From: a virus
Direction: 5' to 3' (one strand)
DNA: 25,266 nucleotides
IMG/VR virus record: IMGVR_UViG_3300035212_000704
Span: 1 to 25,266 of that record
In this document: one piece after another, positions 1-22,470 of the stretch
How the letters are laid out: each line of letters opens with the position of its first letter
Numbering within the stretch: the first letter of the stretch is position 1
Program-made: the position numbers and the translations under genes
The notes under the pieces: generated by a model
The model's input: only the letters and a program-made list of their open reading frames with translations
What the model was told of the DNA's origin: nothing
The model's database searches: none

Positions 1-1422
1 GCGGAAGAGTTCAAAGAACTGCGAAACGTCTGCGTGTTCAAAGAGCATACGGTCCCCGCTCAGAAGTTGGGTAACGGCACGACTCGCAAGGGCGTGACAT
101 ACGACAAGTATGCACTAGCGTCTATCTGCAAGAACATGAACGACCAACTGACGGAAGTCGGCAAGTGCTGCCCGTTGACATTGGGGCACACGTCCGAGAA
201 CCCAAAAGATCCACAGCCGGAAGTGTTGGGATTCACTGGATCGTACCGACTTGGCATGGTCGGCAACAAGAAACCAAAGTGGGCTATCTTTACGGATGAA
301 TTCCACCGCAAAGACCGCTCAGAACTTATGAAATACAGCGTCGGGCGTAGCGTTGAGATTCTTCCGCTGCCGGACGTTCACTCGCGAACATTTTACCCGA
401 TTGCGGTACTTCAGACTGAAGAGCCTCGATTGGACCTGCCACCAGCCCGTTACAGCAAATTCGTTTCATCGACGAAGTATTGCAATCGTCTGGATGAGCA
501 TGGAAACACCATTGAAGTGGAGCGTTACGAAATGGCTTTACCCGGTGGCAATAGTGTTGTTCTGCCGAAGCATGTCGGATCAGACGACAAGGACCGTTAC
601 GGCGAAGACTCCGAGATGAACAACATGCCACAGAGTGCCGTTGAGCAGATCTGTCAGGCGATCTTCCAGACGGCACCGTTCCAGTATCTCATCGCTAAGA
701 TGGAAGAAGACGGCAAAGCTGGCTCGGTAAATCCAATGGTACATCAGCCGCCTCAAATGGCTGACATGCCAATGGAAGACCCGGATACACAACCGGGAGG
801 AATGCCGGGAATGGACCCCGCCGCAATGCAGGGACAACCCCAGCCCGGAGGCATGACGCCGCCTGATGCTGGTTCAGATATGGGTGCAGGAGCACCGACA
901 CAGATGCCACCTAAGCAGTTCGCCGGAGGCACGCCGAATAAACCGCCATTTGATAAAGGAAACCCAATGGCTGACGACAACGAAAAGTATTCCAAGTCTG
1001 CTGGACTTCAGGGACTGGAAGCACGCATGGAAGCAATGGAAGCCGAGAACAAGTCTCTGAAAGCCAAGCTGGTCGGTTCAGAGCGTTACAGCAAGCTATC
1101 CGGTCTCAAGGCTGAAGGCTTTGAACTGAATCTGGACAAGGAACTGGCACGAGCCACGACCGCATCTGATGAGCAGTTCGATTCTCAGGTCGAAACGATC
1201 CGAGAACACTACCGCAAGTCTCCGACTGCCGTAGCGGACTTCTCCACGATTGCAGGCGTCGGCAAGATGGCTGAACTTCCAGAAGGTTCAGGCATCGACG
1301 AACTAACAGCAGGAGATGCTCAGGAAGTGGCCAAATACGCCCTTCGTGAAGGTCTTGGCTACGGGGCAGCCCGTGACCGCTATATGTCAGACAAGAAAAC
1401 CGGCAAGAACGTAGCTGGCTAA
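1..1422 (+). CDS. Phage capsid protease/scaffold-type protein, 5' truncated
   Basis: The reading frame is open from the first base, so the gene begins upstream of the window. A GTG at 34 has no convincing ribosome binding site and is probably internal. The N-terminal part (about nt 1-480) resembles head-assembly proteins encoded just before the capsid gene: a conserved LTLGHTSE stretch, then KYSVGRSVEI. I cannot point to catalytic residues, so a protease role is inferred from family and position only. The middle (about nt 730-950) is a Met/Gly/Pro/Gln-rich linker. The last third (from about nt 1006) is heptad-like and charged (LEARMEAMEAENKSLKAKL), as expected of a scaffold coiled coil. A decoration-like gene and the major capsid gene follow. 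The layout matches lambda C/Nu3 or Mu I/Z, where protease and scaffold share a C-terminus. Alternative: a pure scaffold protein. Confidence 0.7.
   Translation, partial: AEEFKELRNVCVFKEHTVPAQKLGNGTTRKGVTYDKYALASICKNMNDQLTEVGKCCPLTLGHTSENPKDPQPEVLGFTGSYRLGMVGNKKPKWAIFTDEFHRKDRSELMKYSVGRSVEILPLPDVHSRTFYPIAVLQTEEPRLDLPPARYSKFVSSTKYCNRLDEHGNTIEVERYEMALPGGNSVVLPKHVGSDDKDRYGEDSEMNNMPQSAVEQICQAIFQTAPFQYLIAKMEEDGKAGSVNPMVHQPPQMADMPMEDPDTQPGGMPGMDPAAMQGQPQPGGMTPPDAGSDMGAGAPTQMPPKQFAGGTPNKPPFDKGNPMADDNEKYSKSAGLQGLEARMEAMEAENKSLKAKLVGSERYSKLSGLKAEGFELNLDKELARATTASDEQFDSQVETIREHYRKSPTAVADFSTIAGVGKMAELPEGSGIDELTAGDAQEVAKYALREGLGYGAARDRYMSDKKTGKNVAG
967..1422 (+). CDS. Nested in-frame scaffold protein (internal start)
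   Basis: Inside the preceding gene, in the same frame, an ATG at 967 follows AAAGGA at 955-960 with 6 nt spacing, one of the better ribosome binding sites in the window. It lies between the low-complexity linker and the coiled-coil part. The product would be 151 residues, starting MADDNEKYSK and containing the whole predicted scaffold coiled coil. Lambda Nu3 and Mu Z are made this way from inside their protease genes. GCCATT (945-950) can pair with AATGGC (966-971), placing the Shine-Dalgarno in a 15-nt loop. Use of this start is inferred. Confidence 0.5.
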   Translation: MADDNEKYSKSAGLQGLEARMEAMEAENKSLKAKLVGSERYSKLSGLKAEGFELNLDKELARATTASDEQFDSQVETIREHYRKSPTAVADFSTIAGVGKMAELPEGSGIDELTAGDAQEVAKYALREGLGYGAARDRYMSDKKTGKNVAG

Positions 1423-4289: not shown

Positions 4290-4696
4290 TGAATTTCTTT
4301 CGACGCTGGCTGTTTAACCGCAGCCGGTTTGTCTTTCGATACTGGAATGGCCATCGGATCACGTTAGCTGATCCGATGGTACTCTGGCGTTCTCTCCAGC
4401 AGAACGAGGACTTCCGCGAGGAAGACTTCAAACTGATGAAGGTTGACGCATTGCGTGACAATCTCATTGGTAAGGTTGCGGGAATCGTGCGTCAGGTGTT
4501 CAGTCTGAAGACTCCGGAAGACGCAGGGCTAACCGAATTGGAATGCCTTGATCTGCTGAAAGCGTTCATGGCATATTCCGGGTTTCAAAAAAAAAGTGGC
4601 GATCTGACGCAGACCTTGCATCCACTTACGGAAGCGACTGCATTGGAAGACTCGATGCCAGAACCGAGCACGAACGACGATTCGGAATCTATCTAA
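4286..4696 (+). CDS. Tail assembly chaperone, short form (gpG-like)
   Basis: A 136-residue cytoplasmic protein starting at the ATG that overlaps the tail tube stop codon. Its helical body contains DPMVLWRSLQQNEDFREEDF and a C-terminal region LTELECLDLLKAFMAYSGFQKK. It lies between tail tube and tape measure genes, where lambda G and its analogues sit. These proteins bind the tape measure during tail assembly and are not part of the finished tail. After the slippery run, the in-frame tail is a poorly structured acidic stretch ending at 4696. That makes it the short product of a frameshift pair. Confidence 0.75.
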   Translation: MMNFFRRWLFNRSRFVFRYWNGHRITLADPMVLWRSLQQNEDFREEDFKLMKVDALRDNLIGKVAGIVRQVFSLKTPEDAGLTELECLDLLKAFMAYSGFQKKSGDLTQTLHPLTEATALEDSMPEPSTNDDSESI

Positions 4697-4857
4697 ACCT
4701 TGAGCGTGTGCAGGCATGGCAAGCGATGGCCATAGCTCAGGGGATCGGGATAGCACTGGGCGGGAATATCAGCAAAGAGTACTTCGAGCAACTGTACGAA
4801 AACGAGGCAACAGTGAATCGAGCAGTCTCAGCCAGCAAGAAAAAGAAGGGGAAGTAA
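4286..4857 (+). CDS. Tail assembly chaperone, -1 frameshift long form (gpGT-like)
   Basis: Reading in frame to 4594 and then re-reading from 4594 in the -1 frame gives an uninterrupted 190-residue product ending with TAA at 4855-4857, directly against the tape measure ATG. The new C-terminal 87 residues begin KWRSDADLASTYGSD and include LNLERVQAWQAMAIAQGIGIALGG and a Lys-rich end, SASKKKKGK. The -1 frame is closed upstream (TGA at 4549-4551) and has no good start of its own. The +1 frame stops almost at once. This is the lambda G/GT architecture: the T part recruits tail tube subunits while the G part coats the tape measure. The frameshift is inferred from sequence. Transcriptional slippage on A9 could produce the same protein. 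Confidence 0.75.
4588..4594 (+). other. Programmed -1 frameshift slippery site (A AAA AAA in an A9 run)
   Basis: Nine consecutive A residues occupy 4587-4595. In the gpG-like frame the heptamer is phased A-AAA-AAA (4588-4594), so both tRNAs can re-pair after a -1 slip. The slip opens an 87-residue extension. AGTGG (4595-4599) can pair with CCACT (4622-4626), a modest possible downstream stimulator. Confidence 0.75.
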
Positions 4858-6885
4858 ATGGCACGCCGCCCATTGAGAGACCCTATCTCCGACCTGATCA
4901 GCGATATGAGCCGAGCCATCATCGGTACGGCATCGAACTTTCAGGATAACGTCGGTGATGTAACTGAGGGGCTGACTCAGCAGATCGCGTCTGCCGTTGC
5001 TGCTGAATCCATACCAACGCTGACTTCCGAGATCCGCAGAACACTGTCGGGTTCTCGCACGAGGCCATCTGCCGGAACTGGACCGCTTCCACTAAATGGA
5101 ACTGCATCTCCTCAGCCTAACCAGCCTGACTCAGTCCTAAAATCGTTCAGTGATTTAAGTGAACTGCCACCAATAGCCGAAAACCACGTCCGGCTGGTTC
5201 ACCATGGAAACATTGACGACTCAGTCCTTTCCAAAGGATTCGAGTACACGGGCGACATACTGCACAACACCGTTGCTTATTCATCCAATGATCAAATCAA
5301 ATGGCCAACTGACTCTCGCTTTAGTGAGTCTCCGGCGATCATCATGGACGTTCCGCAGGACGTTCATCGGCAACACGCTCGACTTTCTACCGCACCGGGA
5401 TCACTGGACGGCAGATATGTCGTTGGACGTGTAGCTGTTCCCGGTTCTTCTAGCACACAGCCTGAAACACTAGACGAAGGGGCACGCCGCAGGGCCGCAG
5501 AGGCTGCCGAAATCGTTAATTCAATTCCGGGGTTTGGCGGTGGCGGCAATAGGATTCCTCCCGTCGATCCACCCGACGAGCCACAGTCAGGCGTCAACTT
5601 CACGATGCCTGAACGTGAACAGGAATCGCTAGACGAAGGGGCACGCCGAAGGGCCGCAGAGACTGCCGCAATCGTCGAGTCAATTCCGGGCTTTGGTGGT
5701 GGCGGCAACCGCATTCCTCCCGTCGATCCACCGGGACCACCTGATCCACCCGATGACGACCCGCCCGACGAGAATGATTTCTTCCGCAGGTTCACAGAGT
5801 GGCTACAGAGATTCACGGGAGTCATGCCAGATCCTCGGGAATTCGACACGCTGCTGAATAACGTAACCGATGTTCTTGGCGGACAACCTGCACAGCCGGA
5901 CGACCCAACACGACCGTCTCCGCTGGCTGGTTTCATGACGGCGTTCTCGGATTACTTCAACACGCCGCAGTTAAGCCCAGAGGCTCAGATTCGAGCGGAG
6001 CAGGACTTAACGGAAGCCGTCGAAGAACTGACGCAAGCTGTCACGGGAAACACTCGCACAAGATCCGGAACAACTCCACGGGCTAACCGGACTGCGAACT
6101 GGATTCGACGCAGAGCACAGAGGGCAGTTGTCGGCACCGCAAAAGTCATGGCAAGAATGGCACGCCCATTTGCTCGCAGTTTCAACAATCTTATTCCGCA
6201 GAATATGCGTGCTCAGATGACGCAATGGGGAGCACAGGTTGTCGGGCAACAGGCTCGGAATCTAGGCGTACCAGTAGGCACAGCAGTGAGATTCGGGGCA
6301 TCCCTTGGGCCTGCTGCTGCACTCGTTGGAGGGGCAATGATTGCAGCGCCAATAGTCGGTGCAATTGTTACACAACTTAACAAATGGTCCGCAGAGGCTC
6401 TCGTAAGAATCAACCGTGTTGCTCAGTACAACGGGGATCTGTTCTCTGGTCAAAAGACGCTGGAAATGGGACGGCTTCAGCGTGATATCGCCGCAGCTAA
6501 TATTTCCGGATCTTCCGGCAGAGCCAGATTCAAAGCCGAGAACGACGCCGAGCAATCATGGGCACCGTGGGAAAACTTCAAGACAGGTTCCGGTAATCTA
6601 TGGGGAACCGGCATGGCAAGTGCTTCCGGCCTCATGGGGGACGTTGTCAATGAGTCAATGGCAGCACTGCCAAGGGTTGTGGAGCTTCTCGGCTATCTCT
6701 CAAATCTGGAATCCATTCAACGGTTCGGACAAAAAGCTATCGATTTTTGGTTGGGTGGCAATAACGGTAACGCTGACGTGTACCGCGCCAGTGCTATGGG
6801 TGCGTGGGTATCTGAAGAAGCCAACGGACAAGCCGCACAAGATCAACGCAGACGGGCACGAAGGCCGCTAGGACCACAACCATGA
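4858..6885 (+). CDS. Tail tape measure-like protein
   Basis: A 675-residue protein starting right after the frameshifted chaperone stop, with AGGGGA 6 nt before its ATG. The N-terminal part is amphipathic and helical. The middle (about residues 205-300) contains a tandem 53-residue repeat (LDEGARRRAAE...PGFGGGGNRIPPVDPP) and a Pro/Asp-rich linker. The C-terminal half has a hydrophobic stretch (about residues 479-507, PAAALVGGAMIAAPIVGAIV) typical of tape measures, which help DNA cross the membrane. Position after G/GT is the strongest evidence. Tape measure length sets tail length, and 675 residues with long linkers would imply a short tail by siphophage standards. Its TGA overlaps the next gene's ATG. 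Alternative: a tail-associated membrane protein with a separate tape measure elsewhere. Confidence 0.7.
   Translation: MARRPLRDPISDLISDMSRAIIGTASNFQDNVGDVTEGLTQQIASAVAAESIPTLTSEIRRTLSGSRTRPSAGTGPLPLNGTASPQPNQPDSVLKSFSDLSELPPIAENHVRLVHHGNIDDSVLSKGFEYTGDILHNTVAYSSNDQIKWPTDSRFSESPAIIMDVPQDVHRQHARLSTAPGSLDGRYVVGRVAVPGSSSTQPETLDEGARRRAAEAAEIVNSIPGFGGGGNRIPPVDPPDEPQSGVNFTMPEREQESLDEGARRRAAETAAIVESIPGFGGGGNRIPPVDPPGPPDPPDDDPPDENDFFRRFTEWLQRFTGVMPDPREFDTLLNNVTDVLGGQPAQPDDPTRPSPLAGFMTAFSDYFNTPQLSPEAQIRAEQDLTEAVEELTQAVTGNTRTRSGTTPRANRTANWIRRRAQRAVVGTAKVMARMARPFARSFNNLIPQNMRAQMTQWGAQVVGQQARNLGVPVGTAVRFGASLGPAAALVGGAMIAAPIVGAIVTQLNKWSAEALVRINRVAQYNGDLFSGQKTLEMGRLQRDIAAANISGSSGRARFKAENDAEQSWAPWENFKTGSGNLWGTGMASASGLMGDVVNESMAALPRVVELLGYLSNLESIQRFGQKAIDFWLGGNNGNADVYRASAMGAWVSEEANGQAAQDQRRRARRPLGPQP
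5470..5573 (+). repeat. Direct repeat, copy 1, within the tape measure gene
   Basis: A 104-nt unit beginning CTAGACGAAGGGGCACGCCG is repeated 159 nt (53 codons) downstream with a limited number of substitutions, several synonymous. It encodes LDEGARRRAAE...SIPGFGGGGNRIPPVDPP. Confidence 0.85.
5629..5732 (+). repeat. Direct repeat, copy 2, within the tape measure gene
   Basis: Second copy of the 104-nt unit in the same frame. The 55-nt spacer between the copies (GVNFTMPEREQES in protein) is not repeated after copy 2, where a Pro/Asp-rich run follows instead. Confidence 0.85.
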
Positions 6886-9032
6886 CGGAAACATGCCTCA
6901 GTTATAACGGAGTCATTCTGCGTAACGTCCAGACACTGGCACTGGAAGAAACGCCAGTCCACGATGAGTCCGGACAGCAGCACATCTACAACCGTGTCAG
7001 GCTGAAGGTCCGTGGATACTTCACGAAGGATAACCCACGAGCCAACAGCGGACGCGGCACACAGACGGGCATATGGCCAAACCTTGCAGGCCAGTACGCG
7101 GGCAATGGGGAAAACACTCCGCTCGGGGCAGATCGGCAGTTTCACTTTCTGTCGTACTACCTGAACGAGCCACGCCGAACATTGCGTTATTCCGTCAACT
7201 TCAATCACGCCACTGCACCGCTTCTGTACTACGTTAAACCGGCCAGCGATGCACTGGCTGAGGAAGTGATTCCACCACCGCCAGTGATGCCAGAAGGATG
7301 GGTAGGGCCACAACAAGAACAGGCTGCCGAGATCCTGCTGAACAACATGAACGGATGGTTCGACATGCACGGCGGACCATTCCCAAAGAATGTGTCTATC
7401 ACGCAGATTGCGAACAATACGGCATGGTGTGTTGAGTTTGAGGTTGAGTTTGCGCTGGCTCCGTGGTGTTTCGGCTCGGGTGGGTATGGTGGCCCGGAGG
7501 ACGTGCGATACGGGGAAAGCATCCATCCGGACAAAGACATTGAGGATCAGATTAACCCTGATCGCAGTATCCGCAACTTCGAGGGCGTACATCGCAAACT
7601 TGGCGTGATCAGTAATCGATGGTCCTGTGTTGACCGATTGGATGAAAGCAGTTTCCTTGTCAGGACGTACACAGGAACTGTCCGGCTATCCAATCCACAC
7701 TGGAACCCGCACGATTACCGCGTTCTGACACTGCCCCCGCTAGTGACTGGGATGCGACGTGAGTCCATTGAATACCGGGCATCCGAGGATGGGCTGAAGC
7801 TCCAGTACACGATCACAGACAAGGAAGTCACAATCACGCCACCCGAAGGCTGTTCCGATATCCGGATCAGGCATTCAGAGGCCGCTGTCAGCCTTGGGGC
7901 AATTGTTGAGTTCAATCTTGTCGTGTCAATGAAATCAGAGAAAGATGGTTCTTTATTCGACCTGCACAGGATCGCGGCAGCCATTATTGAAAGCCGTCTA
8001 GGTTTAAGGTTTGGGCAAGAAATCAACTTCTCCACTCAGGTGACCCGCTACGATGTGACATCAGAGCAGGGATCAAACTCTGATTTCAGCCTGGTCGTTA
8101 CGATTCAGGGTTTCCGTCAGAAGTTGAACCCCAACCAGAATAATCCTGACGCCGGAATCAATCAGCAACTCAACGCCATGAGTAACGGGGTATTCAAGCG
8201 GCAGGCGGCTGTTCCCGGATCAGTGTTGCATGACTACTACAACCAGCTTGCCAAGGGTAATCGAGAGAATGAACAGCCGGATTTTGAAGGCGTGATTCCG
8301 GCATTGTCGGCACTTCATGCGGAACTAGCCACACGATGCACGACCAATCTTGGCATCGATTCCAGTATCAAAACGGCTGAAGATAACGGATACCGGACGG
8401 ATCGTGTCGTAGAGCTACAGTCACTGAGTGACAACTACGACGCCGTGACACTTTTCCCGACACTTCTGATTGAGATTCTGGACAGCCTGCCAGATGCTCC
8501 CGATCCTTCCTACAGCCTTTCGGCATCTGCGGGCGTCTACACGGACTACCGAATTTCCAGCCGGTACGGTTCTGCCGGGTTAATTGCCCAGCTTCCGGTA
8601 GCAAAAACAACAACAACTGACGGAAACTCCAGCAACACGACTAACTTTCCGACTTCCGTATTTGTTACAATTGGCCCAGTGCAGCAGACACGCAGGGTGA
8701 TCGTGGAGGCCGAAAGGACTGGTTCACAGCCAAGACTGCCGAATCCCATCCAAGAGTTCACGGTGAATAACTCCAGTGATGAGACTAAACACAAACTCCT
8801 CAGCCTGTCAGTTCATCATGAAAACCCTGTCCCTGCTGCTGCTGGTCCGCAAATGGTGTTTACGTCTCGGGCTGAATACACGTATGGAATCGACAAAGTC
8901 CCAGCAAGTCACAGCCTTGGAATTCCAGACTACATGAAGGCTTCGGAAACCGAGGCAGTGACCCTATCAAAAGCTGCATACTCAAAAACATTGGCAGATA
9001 TCTTTTCTGCTGAATGGACGCTCAATACTTAG
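6882..9032 (+). CDS. Large tail/baseplate structural protein, unassigned (716 aa)
   Basis: A 716-residue soluble, beta-rich protein that overlaps the tape measure stop by 4 nt (ATGA), so it is probably translationally coupled. No enzyme motif is visible. The N-terminus (LSYNGVILRNVQTLALEETPVHDESG) reads like the start of a tail-tip protein. A Pro-rich linker VIPPPPVMPEGWVGP lies near residue 130. The region around NPHWNPHDYRVLTLPPLVTG and the C-terminal third alternate strands and turns. Position directly after the tape measure is where distal tail, hub or tail-associated lysin proteins are found. I do not recognise the family, so distal-tail or hub function is a guess. The gene ends in the stem of a hairpin that carries the next gene's ribosome binding site. 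Confidence 0.5.
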   Translation: MTETCLSYNGVILRNVQTLALEETPVHDESGQQHIYNRVRLKVRGYFTKDNPRANSGRGTQTGIWPNLAGQYAGNGENTPLGADRQFHFLSYYLNEPRRTLRYSVNFNHATAPLLYYVKPASDALAEEVIPPPPVMPEGWVGPQQEQAAEILLNNMNGWFDMHGGPFPKNVSITQIANNTAWCVEFEVEFALAPWCFGSGGYGGPEDVRYGESIHPDKDIEDQINPDRSIRNFEGVHRKLGVISNRWSCVDRLDESSFLVRTYTGTVRLSNPHWNPHDYRVLTLPPLVTGMRRESIEYRASEDGLKLQYTITDKEVTITPPEGCSDIRIRHSEAAVSLGAIVEFNLVVSMKSEKDGSLFDLHRIAAAIIESRLGLRFGQEINFSTQVTRYDVTSEQGSNSDFSLVVTIQGFRQKLNPNQNNPDAGINQQLNAMSNGVFKRQAAVPGSVLHDYYNQLAKGNRENEQPDFEGVIPALSALHAELATRCTTNLGIDSSIKTAEDNGYRTDRVVELQSLSDNYDAVTLFPTLLIEILDSLPDAPDPSYSLSASAGVYTDYRISSRYGSAGLIAQLPVAKTTTTDGNSSNTTNFPTSVFVTIGPVQQTRRVIVEAERTGSQPRLPNPIQEFTVNNSSDETKHKLLSLSVHHENPVPAAAGPQMVFTSRAEYTYGIDKVPASHSLGIPDYMKASETEAVTLSKAAYSKTLADIFSAEWTLNT

Positions 9033-12060: not shown

Positions 12061-12198
12061 ATGCAGTGCAAGACATGGTTGATTTTGACGAAATATTTTA
12101 ACCCATTATGCAGTATGCAGTTTATGCCGTTTAGCGGAACTGCTTCATGCCCAGTTTGCGTACAGCCAGTGACACCAATAATTCCTGTGCCGGAATAG
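12061..12198 (+). CDS. Cys4 mini-protein, tandem copy 2 (45 aa)
   Basis: MQCKTWLILTKYF...PLCSM...CPVCVQPVTPIIPVPE shares MxCKTW, LCS and CxxCxxPVxP with its neighbours. Its start follows copy 1's stop by 13 nt, with AAAGG about 11 nt upstream. It is hydrophobic after the KTW motif but has no clear membrane segment. Hand-counted GC of the row 12061-12120 is 22/60, well below most of the window, in line with an acquired accessory segment. Confidence 0.6.
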   Translation: MQCKTWLILTKYFNPLCSMQFMPFSGTASCPVCVQPVTPIIPVPE

Positions 12199-12203
12199 CA
12201 GTA

Positions 12204-12890
12204 ATGGAATGCAAGACATGGAGTCAGCAGGACGCAAGCCACTGGCGTGGACTATGCACCAATTCGTTTTACTCCGAAGGAATAACCGGTGCAAAGCAGT
12301 GTGTGGTGTGCGTCATTCCTGTAGATCCACCAGATCCATGTATCGTATGTGACCCCCCAGCACCAAAGATTTATCGGGTTACGATCTCCGGGTACGCGCA
12401 TCCCGAGCTTGATGCGTCAGCCTACTACCGAGAGTTTCTGGTATACAATACTTCTGCGTGTCGATGGGAGTCAAAGGAACAGGAACTTTTAATGCGACGT
12501 GTGCCAGGCGTGTTTCCTGCCGTGTATGAGGTTACTGATCCATCCACTGTGGCGACATCCTACGGGGAGACCTACAGTAAGCAGTATCCGCGTGTTGCGT
12601 TGACGATTGATAATTTACTAGGAACAGTGCGTTGGGGCGTTGAATTAAAGTGGCTGACAATTTACTTCACGACACCCGGCTTGGCATTTATTGTCAACAC
12701 AGGTACGGCATCTGGAACTTCGAGTTCACTTAGTTGTTTGAAGCCAGGTTCTGGAACCAAGAACGGGTGGATATCGAGCGTAGATCAGACCTTTTTTACT
12801 TCTGGGCAAAGGTCTAATCAGTTCGACATGAGCCTTGCGAGTTATGCGGCGAGAGGCATCACATGGACATTTTCAGTGCGTCCATTTTAG
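12204..12890 (+). CDS. Cys4 domain fused to a beta-rich domain, tandem copy 3 (228 aa)
   Basis: The start at 12204 (MECKTW) is preferred over an upstream in-frame ATG at 12147, because it restores the same N-terminus as the two preceding mini-proteins and avoids overlap with copy 2. Residues 1-48 repeat the pattern MxCKTW...GLCT...CVVCVIPVDPP, then a second CIVC. About 165 residues follow. They begin PKIYRVTISGYAHPE, continue through FLVYNTSACRWESKEQE, and end in a Ser/Thr/Gly-rich beta region (FIVNTGTASGTSSSLSCLKP...ITWTFSVRPF). The larger part looks like a beta-sandwich virion domain of the kind found on tail fibres or adhesins. I infer that the Cys4 unit is an N-terminal attachment or capping module. 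The function is not known. Confidence 0.55.
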   Translation: MECKTWSQQDASHWRGLCTNSFYSEGITGAKQCVVCVIPVDPPDPCIVCDPPAPKIYRVTISGYAHPELDASAYYREFLVYNTSACRWESKEQELLMRRVPGVFPAVYEVTDPSTVATSYGETYSKQYPRVALTIDNLLGTVRWGVELKWLTIYFTTPGLAFIVNTGTASGTSSSLSCLKPGSGTKNGWISSVDQTFFTSGQRSNQFDMSLASYAARGITWTFSVRPF

Positions 12891-12903
12891 TGAGAGTTTT
12901 AAT

Positions 12904-14283
12904 ATGACACCGCTTGGCAAAACAACCCCACAACTAGCAGACGAATTCGTAGCTGCAAATGTTGGCACCATTCTTGGAAGCATGTGCCATGATGGGCAAA
13001 GGCGAGTTTTATCAGTTGCCACCGGGAAAGTACTTAATACGCATCAAGCCAGTTTTTCAAAGGTTGCTGGGGCGACGGCGGCGACAATGAGTGACGGTGT
13101 CAACGCTAGGCATCGTGTCTTACCCCTGCCATGTGCTCATCGTGGGTCACAGCGAAATACGTGTTGCGGTTCTCCTGATTTGTGGATCTGTCGAGAGTTG
13201 AAGACGGATTGCGTAGCTGATGAGTCAGCAGCAGCGAAGCTCAGGGGCATGGTTGATACTGTAGAAGCAGCGTCTATTAAAGTGTGCTCGACGTGTCCGC
13301 ACAGGAAACCGCCTGCGACTCGTGTTGGATTTCTTTCCGCAGCCTACATGCCGATCGGCGGAACAGAGACGTTTCATCGCAGTCTTTTGCCACGATTGAA
13401 ACAGGTCGTCAGCGTTTCAGGATTCGCAGCAACCGCATTCCATGGTGGCGATGGATCACTTTTACAGGTTCCATACTCAACCGGCGTGGAAGCAGCACGG
13501 AAACTTGCGGCACACTGTGACATCATTGTCGTTTGGGGAATCCATGATCTTGCGAAGATCCTACCAGCGAATCGCCCGAAGGTAATTGCCGTCCATCATT
13601 CCGACTGGTCGAGCGATTGGAATAATAATCTGGTGCTGAGTCAGCTTAACCTGATCGACGAAGTGATTTGTGTGAATGAACACACGGCAGCAGAGATCGC
13701 GATGAGAGGGAATACAGTCCACTACATCCCAAATTCGATCGATCCAGAACGAATCACCCCAAGCGGAAATCAGTCTGAACTGAGGGTAAAACACGAAATT
13801 CCAGCAAGCCCAAAGATCGTGTTATTTGGACACAGAATGAGCACCGAAAAACGCCCACAACTTGCTGTAGAAATCGCACGCCAGTTGCCGGAAGACTGGG
13901 TCATGGTGATCGCTGGCGAGGGGCCGCAAGTACCAGCAGTGAGAGCATTAGCATCTAATTGCGACCGTGTGAGGGTTGTTGGCCCCTGCGAATCGCTGGC
14001 TGACTGGCTGTCGATATCCGACTGCTTCCTATCGCTGTCAATTTTTGAGGGCTTTGGCCTCTCTATCGGTGAGGCAATGGCAGCAGGAGTGCCTACCGTG
14101 TCAACACCTGCGGGTATTGCACCGGGGCTTGCAACAACGCTTCCAACAGACTCAACGGCTAAAGAATGGGCTGACGCGATCGTGACCGCAAAAGCCATTG
14201 TCGCTCCTGCCGAGATCCTTAATCGTTTCAGCGTTCAGCGAATGGTGGATTCATGGGCCAGTGTCATAAAGGGGCTGCAATGA
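12904..14283 (+). CDS. GT4-family glycosyltransferase with N-terminal Cys-rich domain
   Basis: The start at 12904 gives 459 residues. A longer frame from 12835 would run 56 nt into the preceding gene. Residues about 75-135 hold a Cys-rich domain: CAHRGSQRNTCC, WICRELKTDC and CSTCP (C77, C87, C88, C96, C103, C128, C131). From about residue 138 a GT-B fold begins (TRVGFLSAAYMPIGGTETFH). It continues through HYIPNSIDPERI and IVLFGHRMSTEKRPQLAVEI to the E-x7-E motif EGFGLSIGE (E382, E390), which contacts the nucleotide-sugar donor in GT4 enzymes. It is predicted to transfer a sugar from a nucleotide donor to an unknown acceptor. A role in decorating virion proteins or host surface polymers is possible. 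The Cys-rich domain recurs alone at 14521. The donor and acceptor are not predictable from sequence. Confidence 0.85.
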   Translation: MTPLGKTTPQLADEFVAANVGTILGSMCHDGQRRVLSVATGKVLNTHQASFSKVAGATAATMSDGVNARHRVLPLPCAHRGSQRNTCCGSPDLWICRELKTDCVADESAAAKLRGMVDTVEAASIKVCSTCPHRKPPATRVGFLSAAYMPIGGTETFHRSLLPRLKQVVSVSGFAATAFHGGDGSLLQVPYSTGVEAARKLAAHCDIIVVWGIHDLAKILPANRPKVIAVHHSDWSSDWNNNLVLSQLNLIDEVICVNEHTAAEIAMRGNTVHYIPNSIDPERITPSGNQSELRVKHEIPASPKIVLFGHRMSTEKRPQLAVEIARQLPEDWVMVIAGEGPQVPAVRALASNCDRVRVVGPCESLADWLSISDCFLSLSIFEGFGLSIGEAMAAGVPTVSTPAGIAPGLATTLPTDSTAKEWADAIVTAKAIVAPAEILNRFSVQRMVDSWASVIKGLQ

Positions 14284-14851: not shown

Positions 14852-17800
14852 ATGGTCTCTGCTAATCCCAACGACTTCCACGTCATGGTTAATCCCCGCA
14901 GCCAAAGTGCGGAATCCGTGGCTAAGTGGATTGGCGACAAGATGGCCAATAACACCGATCCGGCGTCACGCACGCCCGGTGCCCCGCCAATGTATGGCGA
15001 AGATGCTGTCCCGCACCTGATGACGTTTCAGAGCATCGTTGGCAGCTTTTCTCGTGCGTATATCAATCCCGACGAGGCTATGCGGGATTCCATCGACAAC
15101 GCCCATTTGATGGAAAAGGACGTAGGTCTGCTGGAAAGCGTGGAATGCCGTCAACGCCTGACAGCTTTGCTAGACTGGGAGATCGTCCCGGAAGACGAGA
15201 AGTGTCAGTATCAGGTGTCACTGGCTCAGGAACTCCAGAAGATCATCGGACGTATCCGGAACTTCACCAAGTACCGCATGTGGCTCATGAAGGCCATTTG
15301 GTCCGGTCGATCGGGTATTCAGCACAAGTACGGTTACACTCGCGTCAATGGCTCAATGCGAATGATGCCTACGCCGCTCCACCGTGACCATAACGGCTGG
15401 ATGCCAATCAACGGTGACAAACTGATCTTCCGTTACGAAGATGGATTGCACACAAGCGACGCGGGAGCCTACCCGCATCAGATGGGGATTAAGGTCGGCG
15501 TCAATCCCGGAGGCGGCAAGCTACGCATTCACCGCGACTACAAGACGGAGCCGGTAGCCGATGGCATGGCCGTGTTCCTGAAGCCATACGAGCGGGACAC
15601 GTTCTGCGTTCATAAGCACATGATCGAGGACGCGGACTTTCATCATTCGTATTTTGCTGGTTCGATTCACGGTGTGGGTATCCGGTCGAAAATCTACTGG
15701 GAATGGTTCTTGAAGCAGGAAGCGTTCGCGTTCCTGATGCAGTATCTGGAACGATCCGCAGGCGGCATCGAAGTCTGGACGTATCCGATGGGCGACCCGA
15801 AAGCCCTCGAAGCGACCAAGAAGGCCGCAATGGAGAAGATGGCCAACGGAAGGAATATCGTATTCTTCCCGAAGCCGATGGGAGACGACTCAGACGCTTA
15901 CAAGTTCGAGGTGATCGAGCCGGGAGCGATGGGCCTTGATATCATGCAGGGCATCATCGAGAACTACTTCGGCGGACGGCTGAAGCGGTACATTCTCGGT
16001 CAGGAACTCAGTACCGAAGCCAAGGCTACCGGCATGGGTTCCGGCGTGGCTGAAGCCCACATGGACACACTCAGCCAGATCGTGAACTTTGACGCACGAA
16101 ATCTGGAAGAGACGTTGACGCACGAACTGGTGCGGTACATCCAGCAACTGAACTTCCCGGAGACACTGGGATGGCACATGCGAATGTCCCTCAAGACTGA
16201 GGACGACAAGACGCAGGAACGTATGGAAGCCCTGAACTCTGCCTATCAGATGGGGGCACGGATTGCAGAGTCTGAAGTGTTCAAGACGCTTGGGCTGTCA
16301 GCACCGACCAGCGGCGAAAAGATCCTGTCGATGCAGTCTCAGCAGCCTGGCGGTATTCCGGGAATGCCCGGTATGGACGGCATGGACCCAATGGGAGGTA
16401 TGCCACCCGGCGCCGACCCGTCTGCCGATCCAGAAAGCGGTGTTTTTCCGGATCAGGAAACTGACTCAGAAGAGGAAATGTCAGGCGACCCGATGGAGCT
16501 TATCCGCAGTCTGATGGATCAGTACATGCGGGAGCGTGACGTTGATCGGTACGCATCACAGCTTGCGTTCAACTTCGATGAGAAGCTGCACCCGAGAGAA
16601 TCCGTCGAGCATGGCGGACATAAGCCCGGCCAGTTTGCACCAAAGAACACGGGCGGAATGGCCAAGCCGAAGCAGCAGAGTCTGTTCGGCGGTTCTGCCA
16701 TGCCCGTTGCGAGGCGTTCTGCTGGCGGTGCAAAGAAGCCCGGCAGCGGCAAGGCAGCCAGTAGGTTCGCTACTCTGTTTGCCGAGCACATGCACAAACA
16801 GCATCAGCAGAAGACAATCAACTTCGACGAGCCAATCAATACGCCTGCTGAACATCCATCCCCGACACAGGCACAGCAACCAGCACAAACCCCTGTCTCA
16901 ATTGAGACAGAGAAGCCACCACTGGAGGAAATGTCACGCATCGCTGCTGGGTATCAACTGCATGGAATGCGGGCAGAACCAGAGGACGACCGACTGGCAC
17001 GGCAGCACCAGAAGCACATGACAAAATCAGCCTTGGATAACTGGCTGATGAAGAAATTCGATATCGACGCATTTACGGCCCGTGGCGTCAGTAACGCTGC
17101 TGGTGAGATGAACCCGTACACAGTTGATGGGTCTGGAACAGTTGGCGGCACTAACGTCCGATGGACACACAAATCCAAGGAGCCATCCATTGAGGAACTT
17201 GGTGACGTACCTTGGACGCAACAAGCACCAACACCACAACCGCAGCCCGTTACGCAAAGTCAGCAGACGCCACCAACTGCCGACGTTCCGTCACAGCCAG
17301 AGGCAAGCCCTAACGCTGATATGCCGACCAAGCCAGCACGCCGCCGCATGATGGGTGCGAGTGCTGACAGCATGAAGGCAGTAGCACAGCCCACAGCAGC
17401 ACCTATCACGCCTAAGCCACAGCAACCGGCTCCATCCGTACAGTCAATCCCGGCGCTGAAATCAGCGCCGGGACAATACCTGTCGAAAACACAGGAGAAA
17501 ATCGACACGTCACAGAAACCTGTCGATTCCGGCAACACTAGCCAACGTGATCAGCTTGTGACGGATCACTTCCATTTGGTCCCGAAAGTCGTCCGGATGA
17601 TGCAGAAAAAAGGATGGTCTGTCCGTGATGATGACGCCGCAGAATCTGCCGCTATGGACGGTCTAATGAAAGCTGCCGAGAAATGGGACGGATCAACCGA
17701 CTTTGCAACGTATGCCAAGAACGGAATGGCTCAGGCAATCAAGAATCTAAACCGCCGCAAGTTAGACAAGATGACCAGCAGCGGAATGAGCGACGACGAG

Positions 17801-18637
17801 TCTGATCCGATGGCAAACGTCCAGTCCCGCGACTCTGGATCAGTCTACGACGATGAAGCTAAGAGCCACCTGAATGACGCAATGAGTAAGCTAGGCAAGG
17901 ATTCTGACCAGTGGCTGGTTCGTGCGTGGTTCACAAAAGAAGACGAGAACGGCAACGCACTAACTCAGGATCAGGCGGCGGAAGAGTACAACAACCGATT
18001 CGGGACATCATTAACACGTCAAGCAATTGCAGCACGAGCCGTGAAACTGGCCGCGAAGTTGCGTGACAGTCTTGGCGATCCTAACCAGTACGCTGCTGTT
18101 CGCAACATGATCATCCGGTACTACCGGGACGAGATCCTGACCATGCAGAAGGAACGCTACGAACGGCGTCAGGACCGCATGATCCGCGAGGCGGCTGAAT
18201 ACACGGAATCCGACCCAACAGACGCTCAGATCAAGGCTGGCAACTACAAGAAGGGCAGGTTCACATGGAACGGTATGCCGATCGTGATCGAGAACCCAAG
18301 AGGCTCGACAAGACGTGGCGTGTCTTCCAGTGGCGAAATCTGGCGTCAAGAGATGACAGCACACTACGGCTATATCTCCGGGACAGAAGGCTCAGACGGC
18401 GATCAGGTTGATGTCTTCATGGGCAAGTATCCAGATTCAGAACTGGTATTTGTCGTCAGTCAAATTGACCAGTCAACAGGGCAATTTGACGAACTGAAAG
18501 TCATCCTCGGAGAAACCAATCTGAAGAAGGCTAAAGCCCTGTATCTGTCCAACTACTCCAAAGGCTGGAAGTGCGGAGAGATCGAGCCAATGACCATTTC
18601 CCAGTTTAAGGCCATGCTAGAGTCAGGAGACTGCTAA
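14852..18637 (+). CDS. Portal (Mu gp29/DUF935-like) fused to sigma70-like and inorganic-pyrophosphatase-like domains
   Basis: A 1261-residue protein. Residues 1 to about 480 are a DUF935-type portal, including YFGGRLKRYILGQELSTEAK (from 372) and AEAHMDTLSQIVNFDARNLE, and form the dodecameric DNA gate. A Met/Gly/Pro linker follows, then an HPR...GQF module (573-600) and a QQSLF motif (608-612). Next come a long Pro/Gln linker and a palindrome-encoded stretch (866-873). Residues 902-972 resemble sigma70 region 2 (AAEKWDGSTDFATYAKNG...QAIKNLNRRK), but the usual WW pair is N957-G958. Residues 1015-1072 resemble region 4 (LTQDQAAEEYNNRFGTSLTRQAIAARAVKLAAKLRD). Residues 1137-1261 match the phage polyvalent-protein pyrophosphatase-like domain, with D1182, D1184 and D1187 in DGDQVDVF. 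Most portals have 400-550 residues. The ribosome binding site is weak. The stop overlaps the next start (TAATG). Confidence 0.85.
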   Translation: MVSANPNDFHVMVNPRSQSAESVAKWIGDKMANNTDPASRTPGAPPMYGEDAVPHLMTFQSIVGSFSRAYINPDEAMRDSIDNAHLMEKDVGLLESVECRQRLTALLDWEIVPEDEKCQYQVSLAQELQKIIGRIRNFTKYRMWLMKAIWSGRSGIQHKYGYTRVNGSMRMMPTPLHRDHNGWMPINGDKLIFRYEDGLHTSDAGAYPHQMGIKVGVNPGGGKLRIHRDYKTEPVADGMAVFLKPYERDTFCVHKHMIEDADFHHSYFAGSIHGVGIRSKIYWEWFLKQEAFAFLMQYLERSAGGIEVWTYPMGDPKALEATKKAAMEKMANGRNIVFFPKPMGDDSDAYKFEVIEPGAMGLDIMQGIIENYFGGRLKRYILGQELSTEAKATGMGSGVAEAHMDTLSQIVNFDARNLEETLTHELVRYIQQLNFPETLGWHMRMSLKTEDDKTQERMEALNSAYQMGARIAESEVFKTLGLSAPTSGEKILSMQSQQPGGIPGMPGMDGMDPMGGMPPGADPSADPESGVFPDQETDSEEEMSGDPMELIRSLMDQYMRERDVDRYASQLAFNFDEKLHPRESVEHGGHKPGQFAPKNTGGMAKPKQQSLFGGSAMPVARRSAGGAKKPGSGKAASRFATLFAEHMHKQHQQKTINFDEPINTPAEHPSPTQAQQPAQTPVSIETEKPPLEEMSRIAAGYQLHGMRAEPEDDRLARQHQKHMTKSALDNWLMKKFDIDAFTARGVSNAAGEMNPYTVDGSGTVGGTNVRWTHKSKEPSIEELGDVPWTQQAPTPQPQPVTQSQQTPPTADVPSQPEASPNADMPTKPARRRMMGASADSMKAVAQPTAAPITPKPQQPAPSVQSIPALKSAPGQYLSKTQEKIDTSQKPVDSGNTSQRDQLVTDHFHLVPKVVRMMQKKGWSVRDDDAAESAAMDGLMKAAEKWDGSTDFATYAKNGMAQAIKNLNRRKLDKMTSSGMSDDESDPMANVQSRDSGSVYDDEAKSHLNDAMSKLGKDSDQWLVRAWFTKEDENGNALTQDQAAEEYNNRFGTSLTRQAIAARAVKLAAKLRDSLGDPNQYAAVRNMIIRYYRDEILTMQKERYERRQDRMIREAAEYTESDPTDAQIKAGNYKKGRFTWNGMPIVIENPRGSTRRGVSSSGEIWRQEMTAHYGYISGTEGSDGDQVDVFMGKYPDSELVFVVSQIDQSTGQFDELKVILGETNLKKAKALYLSNYSKGWKCGEIEPMTISQFKAMLESGDC
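16568..16651 (+). repeat. HPR...GQF module, copy 1 (portal protein residues 573-600)
   Basis: FNFDEKLHPRES...KPGQFAPKN, with HPR at 580-582 and GQF at 593-595. Its DNA TTCGATGAGAAGCTGCACCC matches copy 5 except for a 3-nt deletion. It separates the portal part from the downstream linker. Confidence 0.7.
17449..17470 (+). repeat. Palindrome inside the portal gene, second copy of the 1426-1447 element
   Basis: The 22 nt from 17449 are identical to 1426-1447. Here flanking bases extend the palindrome to a 12-bp stem (TCCCGGCGCTGA/TCAGCGCCGGGA) with an AA tip. Eleven further bases (TCGAAAACACA) are shared 11-12 nt downstream of both copies. It encodes PALKSAPGQ in the linker just before the sigma-like region. 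Confidence 0.8.
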
Positions 18638-18702
18638 TGTTTCGCGAACAAGATCACCCACGAGACGAAGCAGGAAAATCCACTGGCGGACAGTTCACGT
18701 CC
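18637..18702 (+). repeat. HPR...GQF module, copy 2 (second giant protein residues 1-22)
   Basis: MFREQDHPRDEAGKSTGGQF is the very N-terminus, so this protein begins with the module that sits mid-protein in the portal. This is the form (HPRD..G+..GGQF) most often seen in other phage proteins. Confidence 0.7.
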
Positions 18703-21700
18703 ACAGGTCAGCAGTCCCGCGATGAGTTAATGAAATCCAGAATGCGGGAATCACTCAAGCAGATGGGGGTGCGGTCTCAGCAGTCAGCACCAAAAGAACC
18801 GGAAGTGCAGAACGTCGATATCTCAGAGTTCGACGTGGGGCGGCTCCCAGTGCCCAAGTCTATGCGGATCAACAAGCCCGCGATTGATGAATGGTACGGT
18901 GACCATATCAACTCCATGAAGTCTCAGGGATCATCAGCCGCATCGATCACGGACTCTATCCTGAAGTCCGATGACGCGGTCGGCATCGTTGTCCATGAAA
19001 AAGACCTGAACACTCTCCGCGACAAAGTGGATTCCCATTTCGACAAGCTGAGTGGTAAGCACGCTGGCGACGATGATTATCTGACTATCGACGGTGAAGA
19101 CTGGGAAGACTATGCGTCCCAGTACGTCGATAAGATTGCATCCGTCATGGCACGGGCACCACTGGAAGAATACATCGAGTCCATCGCAGCACAGCCGCAG
19201 GATGAGGAATCTGCCGACCATTATTCCCATCAGAAATCACTGTTCGGTGATGAGCCAGCAACACCACATCCAAAGGGATTCCGGGAAGAACTGCACGCAC
19301 GGGAAAAGGACAACATCCCGAACCCTAACCGGCATCCGGGACAGTTCGCACCAAAGGGCGGAAGTAACCCGCTTCTGAAGGTGGTCGAGCATGAGCACGG
19401 TTGGACAGCAAGTTCTGTACTGAAGGACGGCAAGGAGTTCCGCGTCGAAGGCAGGGACCGCAGAGAGGCTATCGGTAACGCTGTTCGTGCGGGTGAGAAG
19501 ATGGGCGTGATCTTTGACCCACCCAAAGCAGAGCCAGCAATCGGCGGGCTGTTCGGTGGATCGTTCGACGAGAAGGCACATCCACGCCACAAGGCCGGGG
19601 ATTCAGACGGCGGTCAGTTTGCGGCAAAGAATCAGGCGGAAGACGCACCGTTTGCATTGCAGCAGCCGAAGAAGAAACCTGCTGTAATGTCGTTCGATAA
19701 CAACGCCAACACGAAGCAGGCTGCACTGTTCGACTCAGGCAAGAAGAAGGAGCTACCGGGACAGGAATTGCTGTTCAATTCTGACGCTGGAGACCTGCAC
19801 AACCCGAAGACGATGGAGAATCTGGCAAAGGGTTCTGAAAAACCTGAGGAGACTAAACCTGAACTCACAAGCAATCGGTTGGCAGTCTTGAAAGGATCTC
19901 TCGAAAAGAAAGAGAGGAAACTTGACGAGAGATTCAATGCTCATTTTGATGATGTAGCTAGGGCAAATGGTCAACCACTGAACGACAAGCGAAATGGTCA
20001 GGCAACTCTCAGCCGATGGGATAAGCAATCTGATTCTATTCGAAACACGCAGAAGGAAATCGAGAAAACAAAGCAGGCAATTGGGCGAGAAGAAGAAAAA
20101 ATCCTAAACGTATCCTCAGAAAAGATTCCAAGTTTCATCAGCGATATGGTGCAACGTGGAGAACTGAATCAGTGGCGAAAGTATCCCAATACGTTTTTTG
20201 TTCCAGGCGTGGACAAGGGTCGTATTGTTTGGAATGAAGAAAAAGGGTTTTTGGCTCATCGATATTTATCCGAAGTACCAAAGGACCAATACCCGAAATT
20301 CCGAGATGTTTTCAATAAATTGAATGCGAGTTTGAAGGAATCTAAAGTTGCGAGTTCTGAATCAAAGTCGCAACCAGATCCATTGGCAATCGCACGGGAA
20401 GCCCTGTCGAACAATGAAAACATCGGGATCACGATGGGACGGCACGGCGTCACCATCAAAGGACATCCGGATTACCGTACGATTCGGCAGCAGGTTTCTG
20501 AACATCTGGCTGAACTACGAGAGCAGGCAAAGCCACAGCCCTCTCCATCGCGACAAAGGGCGATGGATGCACAGATCCAGAATCGGGTAAACAATCCTGC
20601 CGACAACTATTCGAGTCGTGTCTACCAGCAGTTTGAGCACGAGACAGAACGCTACCTGCGTGACTACACGCTGTACGACGTGGACCGTTACGGCGTCGGC
20701 GGGAACATCATGAAAATGATCCTGTCGATGGTTGCGATGCACGCAATGTCGAGCATGATGGGCAGTGGAACGTCATCGCCCCGTAAACCGGCAGCACAGA
20801 AGCAGGCACCATCCAATCAGGACTTCGAGAAGCTGCACCCACGAGCACAGACACAAGCCGGTAACAGTAAGCCCGGACAGTTCGCAAAGAAGCCGGAAGG
20901 GGCAGCACCGGCACCAGCCCCACGACCAGTGCGACCACTGACAGAACGTCCTGACCTTAAAGCCAGCCCGCGACAAGCACCTCCACAGCAGCAACAGCCT
21001 GCAAAGGCTAATCCGGGCTACATCCAACAAGCACAGGATGCAATAGCACAGCAAGCAGCCAAGCCACGCACTGGAGTCTTTGCCGATAACGCACCAGAGA
21101 CACAAGAAGCACAGGAACCAGAAGTTCCACCAGTCGTGGCGCAACCGTGGCTTGCAGAACCCGGCACGCCTACGCCGGAAAACACGGTATACAACAACGA
21201 TCCGCGTCGTGGCACTCCGGAACAGAAGGCCGCACAACTTCAGCAGCGTATCGCACGAGATCAGGCAGCCAGTCAACCACCAGTGCAGCAGCCCAAGGAC
21301 GCGAACACGGCACGCATTGCTGAGATCTGGGACGTGGACACGACACAGCCGGAAGCACCTCGCAACTACCCTGACAACTTGAACAAGCCGCCAGAGCAGC
21401 AGCAGGACTATTCACCGCCCGCACATTCACTGGAAGGCTTCACGGCACAGGTCATGAAGAACCTGAAGACACCGGCAAACGAACAGGATAACCCAAGAAA
21501 GAAGTTCCTGTTAAACGGCACGCCTAACCCCGGATATGCCCCGCAGGATATCAGTGGACCTGAACGCCCTGCAAAAATACGCAAGAGGACCGTCAAGCCT
21601 GTTGCCGAACCTACTGCCGAACCAGAGCCATCTGCCCCGTCATTGCTCGACATGCCTTCTCAATCTGGTGATGGGGGTATCTTTGAGAACCCTGCCGCCA

Positions 21701-22470
21701 AGGCACGCAAGGAGAAAGCAGAACTCGACCGGATCACGAAGTTTGACACGTCGGATTTTGCAGAGCCGGAACAACCAGAAGCTGCGGGCCGCACCTTAAA
21801 TATCAACGACACGGATGGCGATTACGTTGCACTGGAAGAAGCACGCAAGCAACGATCAAAGAAGGTTGACTCCTTCCGCGACTGGGAAAAGAAGACTCAG
21901 GAAGACCCTGAAGCAAACACGATGGAAGTGGCCGCCGAGTACGAGCTAGATCCTGACAGTTTTAGAAAGCACGCTCAGGAAATGCAGTCGCACGAGGAAG
22001 GCCAATGGGAACGACGTGAAAAAGTCAAAAGAGACATCCGAAAGATATGGCAGGTTAACTCACGAAAGCTAGGCGATCTAGAGAACCGCAAGGGTGGAGA
22101 CTCCAGCAATCTGGCAGGGTCAGACGAACTCAAGGGCAGCCTTGATGACGATCAGGTTTATGAATTCCTTGGATCTGATGAATCCATGTGGGCACAGAAC
22201 GCCTTCGATATGGTCAGGGAAGAAACACCGGCAAGACCTGGTGCCCATGACAAGGACTGGCTACGCGAGCACGCAAAGCACTTTGCCGGTATGTCGAGCC
22301 AATTGCAGCCACAGGAAGACTATCCGGAGCCGGAAGACGGAATGCCATTCAGCCGCAGGGCACTGGTTAAGTCTGTAGACAGGTATTTCCGGGACGCACG
22401 TCAATCTTTCCGCAGCCGGAGGAGCCAAAAAGACTCAGGGTTCTGGACACTGCTGGATGCTTACCTGTAG
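18637..22470 (+). CDS. Giant multi-module virion/polyvalent-type protein (1277 aa)
   Basis: Starts in a TAATG overlap with the portal gene, with AGGAGA upstream. Four HPR...GQF modules (residues 1-22, 215-240, 310-331, 730-752) divide it. Between them lie an acidic helical segment (about 50-190), a small domain SSVLKDGKEFRVEGRDRREA, QxxLF-type motifs (199-203, 361-365, 376-380) and a charged domain (about 405-570, GQPLNDKRNGQATLSRWDKQ then GELNQWRKYPNTFFVPGVDK). A short hydrophobic Met/Ala-rich helix, IMKMILSMVAMHAMSSMMG, is at about 690-708. A long Pro/Gln/Ala-rich linker (about 750-1040) leads to a helical acidic C-terminus. No catalytic motif is recognised. The architecture resembles phage polyvalent proteins carried in the head and released into the host, and its place after the portal is where Mu gpF (MuF) genes lie. 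A MuF domain itself is not visible to me. Confidence 0.6.
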   Translation: MFREQDHPRDEAGKSTGGQFTSTGQQSRDELMKSRMRESLKQMGVRSQQSAPKEPEVQNVDISEFDVGRLPVPKSMRINKPAIDEWYGDHINSMKSQGSSAASITDSILKSDDAVGIVVHEKDLNTLRDKVDSHFDKLSGKHAGDDDYLTIDGEDWEDYASQYVDKIASVMARAPLEEYIESIAAQPQDEESADHYSHQKSLFGDEPATPHPKGFREELHAREKDNIPNPNRHPGQFAPKGGSNPLLKVVEHEHGWTASSVLKDGKEFRVEGRDRREAIGNAVRAGEKMGVIFDPPKAEPAIGGLFGGSFDEKAHPRHKAGDSDGGQFAAKNQAEDAPFALQQPKKKPAVMSFDNNANTKQAALFDSGKKKELPGQELLFNSDAGDLHNPKTMENLAKGSEKPEETKPELTSNRLAVLKGSLEKKERKLDERFNAHFDDVARANGQPLNDKRNGQATLSRWDKQSDSIRNTQKEIEKTKQAIGREEEKILNVSSEKIPSFISDMVQRGELNQWRKYPNTFFVPGVDKGRIVWNEEKGFLAHRYLSEVPKDQYPKFRDVFNKLNASLKESKVASSESKSQPDPLAIAREALSNNENIGITMGRHGVTIKGHPDYRTIRQQVSEHLAELREQAKPQPSPSRQRAMDAQIQNRVNNPADNYSSRVYQQFEHETERYLRDYTLYDVDRYGVGGNIMKMILSMVAMHAMSSMMGSGTSSPRKPAAQKQAPSNQDFEKLHPRAQTQAGNSKPGQFAKKPEGAAPAPAPRPVRPLTERPDLKASPRQAPPQQQQPAKANPGYIQQAQDAIAQQAAKPRTGVFADNAPETQEAQEPEVPPVVAQPWLAEPGTPTPENTVYNNDPRRGTPEQKAAQLQQRIARDQAASQPPVQQPKDANTARIAEIWDVDTTQPEAPRNYPDNLNKPPEQQQDYSPPAHSLEGFTAQVMKNLKTPANEQDNPRKKFLLNGTPNPGYAPQDISGPERPAKIRKRTVKPVAEPTAEPEPSAPSLLDMPSQSGDGGIFENPAAKARKEKAELDRITKFDTSDFAEPEQPEAAGRTLNINDTDGDYVALEEARKQRSKKVDSFRDWEKKTQEDPEANTMEVAAEYELDPDSFRKHAQEMQSHEEGQWERREKVKRDIRKIWQVNSRKLGDLENRKGGDSSNLAGSDELKGSLDDDQVYEFLGSDESMWAQNAFDMVREETPARPGAHDKDWLREHAKHFAGMSSQLQPQEDYPEPEDGMPFSRRALVKSVDRYFRDARQSFRSRRSQKDSGFWTLLDAYL
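19279..19356 (+). repeat. HPR...GQF module, copy 3 (residues 215-240)
   Basis: FREELHARE...NRHPGQFAPK. HPR is degenerate (HAR), but GQFAPK is intact. It follows a QKSLFG motif by about 11 residues. Confidence 0.6.
19564..19629 (+). repeat. HPR...GQF module, copy 4 (residues 310-331)
   Basis: FDEKAHPRHKAGDSDGGQF, then AAK, directly preceded by GGLFGGS. It is followed by two QxxLF motifs within 50 residues. Confidence 0.65.
19830..20370 (+). other. AT-rich insert within the giant gene
   Basis: Hand counts give 97 G+C of 240 (40 %) for 20101-20340, against 74 of 120 (62 %) for the rows 20641-20700 and 21241-21300 of the same gene. The borders are approximate. The segment encodes the charged domain that contains GQPLNDKRNGQATLSRWDKQ and QWRKYPNTFFVPGVDKGRIV. 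The frame is intact throughout, suggesting a domain acquired by recombination from a source with different composition. Confidence 0.6.
20824..20892 (+). repeat. HPR...GQF module, copy 5 (residues 730-752)
   Basis: FEKLHPRAQTQAGNSKPGQF, then AKK. Its DNA is close to copy 1 (TTCGA, then GAAGCTGCACCC). It marks the entry into the long Pro/Gln linker. Confidence 0.7.

Follow-up and report, generated by a model that had tools for sequence, protein, structure and literature searches.

A sigma factor-derived module within a phage portal–pyrophosphatase protein suggests a virion-carried factor for host RNA polymerase

Within a viral DNA stretch of 25,266 nucleotides (IMG/VR record IMGVR_UViG_3300035212_000704, hereafter the window), we found a single gene that encodes, in one chain of 1261 residues, a Mu-type portal, a pair of domains related to regions 2 and 4 of sigma-70 factors (sigma2 and sigma4) and an inorganic-pyrophosphatase-like (InPase) domain. 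The sigma segments reflect true homology rather than chance likeness, and the module has the sigma fold, with sigma2 ahead of sigma4, as established by the family profile TIGR02937, a structural model and hhalign. Since a single chain joins a structural domain to effector domains of distinct activities, and its gene lies among virion genes, it is a polyvalent protein. Its make-up suggests that the phage particle may bring along a factor that redirects transcription in the cell. The likeliest role, which we hold with about even confidence, is that of an effector carried in the capsid and directed at host RNA polymerase upon infection.

The two flanking domains were readily assigned. The portal matches Pfam PF06074 (Portal_Mu) at 122.8 bits against a cut-off of 23.9, over positions 5–336 of the 336 in the model, and the C-terminal domain matches PF18823 (InPase) at 170 bits against a cut-off of 26.8. 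The latter contains the sequence DGDQVDVF (residues 1182–1189), with the metal-site motif DGDQVD at 1182–1187, of which D1182, D1184 and D1187 are invariant across relatives. A helical section of 180 residues lies between the variable tether that follows the portal and the InPase domain. A preliminary description of this DNA, made from the letters and their open reading frames, had proposed one uninterrupted frame with a DUF935-type portal at residues 1 to about 480, sigma regions at 902–972 and 1015–1072 and a pyrophosphatase-like C-terminal domain; all of these assignments held, with the sigma borders refined (Table 1).

The sigma-70 family profile TIGR02937 (NCBIfam) aligns residues 898–1065 with positions 2–156 of its 165 (E 9.2e-10), a single alignment that spans region 2 and then region 4, in order; it supplies the sigma-70 match to residues 890–1080 on which the preliminary description had staked its proposal. 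With the whole chain as query, TIGR02937 was the top NCBIfam family (E 8.2e-8), and the PHROG sigma-factor family phrog_351 matched the module at E 8.6e-5. At the contig level, TIGR02937 recognized the module in six of seven contigs, with E-values from 1e-7 to 1e-23 (including 1.9e-11, 2.7e-11, 2.1e-11, 3.5e-7 and 8.9e-7); the profile also rings in archaeal control genomes, and contig values near 1e-3 were disregarded. Pfam Sigma70_r2 did not match the window protein, although it did match the related contig L021 (E 4e-4), for whose module 18 of the 19 NCBIfam matches are to sigma families, with SigI first. Sequence-profile searches of the PDB placed sigma factors among the best matches, weakly (E 0.1–1); a designed repeat protein that ranked top in both searches was discounted as a sum of weak repeats. 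A region 4 profile by itself returned nothing relevant from the PDB, so the sigma4 assignment draws on TIGR02937, the fold and hhalign.

An AlphaFold model of the module, a check that the preliminary description had recommended, was built with six homologues and revealed two helical domains whose structural neighbours contain sigma factors. The model comprises four helices (module residues 2–79), a disordered stretch (77–102), four more helices (106–178) and one further helix, with a mean predicted local distance difference test score (pLDDT) of 76.5 and a predicted template modelling score (pTM) of 0.46, such that the packing of the domains is not fixed by the model. In a Foldseek search of the PDB, the best 50 matches were all sigma-containing entries, the E-values being modest (best 4.8e-3) as a result of a different arrangement of the two domains with respect to each other. 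By VIA-align, the sigma2 model superposes on domain 2 of SigE over 73 residues at 1.4 Å (Z 12.2), and both domains together align with WhiG over 138 residues (Z 10.3), the large root-mean-square deviation arising from their differing placement. The multi-domain structural matches include WhiG and FliA, and in a viral structure library the sigma factor of Tenacibaculum phage PTm1 ranked first (E 4.9e-4).

Five other IMG/VR contigs carry the complete, uninterrupted fusion, namely L005, L006, L007 and L010, with portals 87–89% identical to that of the window, and the more distant L021 (also G008), with a portal about 67% identical and the same domain order. Two further contigs end within the gene, L009 downstream of the sigma module and L008 upstream of it. 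The fusion contigs come from several other metagenomes, which answers the concern, raised in the preliminary description, that the frame might be an assembly artefact, and the search that it had recommended for other portals with the same fusion thus succeeded among uncultured IMG/VR contigs. No full fusion was found in cultured-phage records, where the portal matched only three Rhodobacter Mu-like phage records at 25–26% identity, and no close cultured relative was found for the terminase or the major capsid protein. Pattern-based scans of GTDB genomes, which can miss distant relatives, returned no prophage copies.

A related locus, G007 (contigs L020 and L045), presents the same module in a different gene. 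Its portal–InPase gene encodes about 715 residues without a sigma module, and the gene that follows, which overlaps the portal gene and runs off the contig, begins with the motif HPRES...HKPGQFAPK, also present in the tether of the window portal, and continues into a canonical sigma. This sigma scores 76.8 bits with TIGR02937 (E 1.4e-21), above the curated cut-off, and matches phrog_351 (E 1.9e-29) and SigA chains of the PDB (E 2e-8). It aligns with the fusion modules by hhalign (P 7e-10 over 162 columns) and with the G008 portal fusion by BLASTP (E 5e-9); as query in a scan of viral contigs, it recovered itself alone. The rest of its gene is partly homologous to the gene downstream of the portal in the window. 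Because the G007 next gene carries the sigma and the fusions carry it in the portal, the portal-locus sigma module exists in two arrangements, either within the portal chain before InPase or heading the next protein. As a separate observation, L045 1–3219 (minus strand) and L007 10641–11231 weakly match, in NCBIfam, the anti-phage defence system protein MzaA, which is large and sigma-containing.

Purifying selection acts on the fusion, including both sigma domains. Between the window and L005 or L007, the ratio of non-synonymous to synonymous substitution rates (dN/dS) is 0.04–0.05 for the portal, 0.09–0.10 for sigma2, 0.2 for sigma4 and 0.10 for InPase, values that are approximate with dS near saturation; across near relatives, the portal ratio is 0.04–0.07. 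The sigma4 domain is divergent, with 20–58% identity to relatives. The L006 and L007 genes are 80–100% identical in DNA along their length, and fall to a fractional identity of 0.33–0.63 at residues about 870–960, in sigma2. The foreign segment of L006 still matches TIGR02937 (E 2.9e-5), so that one sigma2-like segment was swapped for another. Such a replacement points to selection for the sigma fold as such. Between L005 and L007, a tether module at about residues 681–780 was likewise replaced.

Taken with the known architecture of portals, these features allow a mechanism to be proposed. Portals are dodecameric, with a C-terminal crown that faces the capsid lumen. The N-terminal part of the window protein would build the portal ring, and a long, flexible tether in the C-terminal extension would hold the sigma2–sigma4 pair and the pyrophosphatase; given the inward-facing C-termini of portals, up to 12 sigma–InPase arms could be packaged inside the head. 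The extension, probably freed by proteolysis within the tether, would then pass into the cell alongside the DNA; there, the sigma module could engage host RNA polymerase, such that phage promoters are favoured or the host sigma is displaced, and the pyrophosphatase could cleave a nucleotide product or signal. That the portal is a structural protein, and that G007 carries the module in the next head-cluster gene behind an HPR...GQF motif, supports a link between the module and the virion. Our best hypothesis, to which we give an even chance, is a factor that the virion delivers to act on host RNA polymerase, with incorporation, release and polymerase binding all putative. The fuller proposal, in which the portal carries and releases a sigma2–sigma4 effector to reprogram host RNA polymerase ahead of any phage gene expression, the DNA- and polymerase-contacting domains of this effector being swapped as cassettes between phages, we advance tentatively, at somewhat less than even confidence. 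No exact TTGACA/TATAAT promoter occurs in the window.

Several observations weigh against this proposal. The portal ring normally remains in the particle, so release has to be assumed, and our protease search identified neither a cleavage site nor a release or maturation protease. The window module scores 38.4 bits with TIGR02937, just under the curated cut-off of 42.9, for which reason we term it sigma-derived and not a sigma factor. In sigma-70, an Asp and a Gln of the region 2.2 helix contact the core enzyme. By comparison with SigA and the G007 sigma, which keeps Asp and Gln, the window has Ala and Ser at these positions and L021 has Glu and Ser; the helix-turn-helix loop is also longer in the window sigma4. 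The module may hence bind core and promoter in an altered way or no longer bind them. The departure in region 2.2 is not decisive, because WhiG, a functional sigma, has Glu and Ser at the aligned positions. WhiG also has no Trp-Trp in region 2.3, which makes unsound the suggestion in the preliminary description that Asn-Gly in place of Trp-Trp signals a loss of promoter melting; the region 2.2 change is the more relevant departure.

Two conserved elements of the tether were considered in relation to release. The pattern HPR-x(4-18)-GQF[ATSV] occurs in 20 copies across seven contigs (the window and relatives in G001, G003, G004, G006, G007 and G008), confined to the portal fusion and the next gene, where shuffling leads one to expect 0 copies. 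It is absent from about 200 other predicted proteins, and a tblastn search of cultured phages returned no match; as a guess, it could be a head-targeting or processing signal. The second motif, (K/R)RRMMG..DSMKA, is kept in all full-length relatives within the otherwise variable tether, shifted in L010 and weaker in L021, and is a possible processing site. An internal translation start that would free the sigma–InPase part was rejected, as no Shine-Dalgarno-like sequence precedes the ATG of the conserved RRMMG methionine. A prohead protease of family S78 was not found across 13 contigs. The gene at window positions 1–1422, cut by the contig end, precedes the scaffold gene and encodes a product with conserved N-terminal His and Ser and a Pro/Gly-rich, coiled-coil-like tail. 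Its assignment by eye as a protease–scaffold fusion was not confirmed, with an AlphaFold pLDDT of 38 and no profile match.

Other roles for the module must be weighed. It could be a DNA-binding device of the particle that holds the end of the packaged genome or spaces DNA around the portal, without any role in transcription. We consider this unlikely: the module is covalently part of the portal, and the Lys, Asn and Arg of a KNLNR.K pattern, in the helix after region 2.3, are invariant in near relatives while core-binding residues have changed, but sigma2 and sigma4 are both retained in sigma order and the canonical sigma of G007 sits in a non-portal protein. It is similarly doubtful that the module is a sigma mimic, one that binds to the host polymerase or to an anti-sigma factor and promotes no transcription. 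PhyR, described in PMC5830050, offers a precedent, in that its sigma-like domain sequesters an anti-sigma factor. Like the window protein, PhyR contains a sigma-derived domain inside a larger protein; unlike it, PhyR is a cellular response regulator and anti-anti-sigma factor. The altered region 2.2 residues and helix-turn-helix loop, along with the divergence of sigma4, favour a mimic, whereas the canonical residues kept in G007 and the purifying selection over both domains tell against it. The module might also be a late transcription factor that works in the cell where the phage is produced, its amount tied to portal synthesis and its presence in the virion incidental. Phage-encoded sigma factors are common, as the phage matches in the structure search illustrate, but a sigma tethered to a portal would be an odd late factor and no internal start with a ribosome-binding site was found for a free form, leaving this role improbable. 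Chance resemblance or an assembly artefact, for which one could cite the failure of Pfam Sigma70_r2 on the window protein, is contradicted by the recurrence of the fusion across metagenomes, the TIGR02937 (E 9e-10) and fold matches and the BLASTP tie between a relative's fusion and a canonical sigma, and we regard it as extremely improbable.

Portal–InPase polyvalent proteins have been described before, with the proposal that they are packaged and injected (Iyer et al. 2017, PMC5512222). Like the window protein, BcepF1.124 and the portals of Serratia phage MTx and the Pseudomonas DL60-like type carry a PF18823-type pyrophosphatase at the C-terminal end of a portal or minor head protein, whereas the window protein adds a 400-residue tether and the sigma2–sigma4 pair between its Mu-type portal and InPase. 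The word sigma is absent from that survey (PMC5512222). Phage sigma factors of phrog_351 and TIGR02937, such as that of Tenacibaculum phage PTm1, share homologous sigma2 and sigma4 domains and their fold, but those compared are annotated as sigma factors and none as a portal. Precedents for injected proteins that target transcription are the N4 virion RNA polymerase (PMC4496689) and T4 Alt (PMC5512222), both head-borne and injected for early transcription control, the role proposed here for the window module. They differ from the window module, which derives from a sigma factor and is part of the portal chain: N4 injects an entire polymerase, and Alt modifies that of the host by ADP-ribosylation. 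Searches of an open-access library, as distinct from subscription papers and preprints, yielded no portal with sigma regions, in keeping with the preliminary description, which knew of none, and no virion-borne sigma factor. As far as that literature shows, the new element is the sigma-derived module in a polyvalent portal, the portal–pyrophosphatase fusion being already known, and virion-delivered transcription control is familiar from N4 polymerase and T4 Alt, not from a sigma factor. The fusion widens the range of effector domains that ride on phage head proteins. If our proposal is true, a sigma in the portal chain would be a very direct means of equipping the entering genome with promoter specificity of its own from the outset; natural variants for testing it are offered by the sigma2 exchange in L006 and by G007 with its canonical sigma.

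Table 1. Features of the fusion gene and the gene that follows it, in window coordinates
Feature	Position	Strand	Evidence or remark
Portal/sigma-like/pyrophosphatase fusion gene	14852..18637	+	Single open frame, 1261 aa
Mu-type portal domain, residues 85–482	15104..16297	+	Pfam PF06074, E 2.5e-35
Variable linker (tether), low-complexity, Pro/Gln-rich, residues 483–895	16298..17536	+	Read from translation
HPR...GQF motif, residues 580–596	16589..16639	+	Motif scan of related contigs
(K/R)RRMMG..DSMKA motif in linker, residues 830–850	17339..17401	+	Conserved among relatives
Sigma-70 region 2-like domain (sigma2), residues 896–974	17537..17773	+	TIGR02937, phrog_351, model match to SigE domain 2
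Sigma-70 region 4-like helix-turn-helix domain (sigma4), residues 1001–1073	17852..18070	+	TIGR02937 alignment, model helices, WhiG/FliA multi-domain matches
Inorganic-pyrophosphatase-like domain (phage polyvalent proteins), residues 1124–1256	18221..18619	+	Pfam PF18823, E 2.8e-50
Next gene, 1277-aa protein, four HPR...GQF motifs	18637..22470	+	

Elsewhere in the window, positions 12147–14283 hold two genes, one of them a glycosyltransferase (Glycos_transf_1), without counterpart in the related contigs. The large terminase gene varies in length among these contigs, encoding 542 residues in G003 (37546–39174), 913 in G004 (25606–28347), 933 in G006 (4314–7115) and 1211 in G008 (23220–26855), which suggests that the longer genes contain inserted elements such as inteins.
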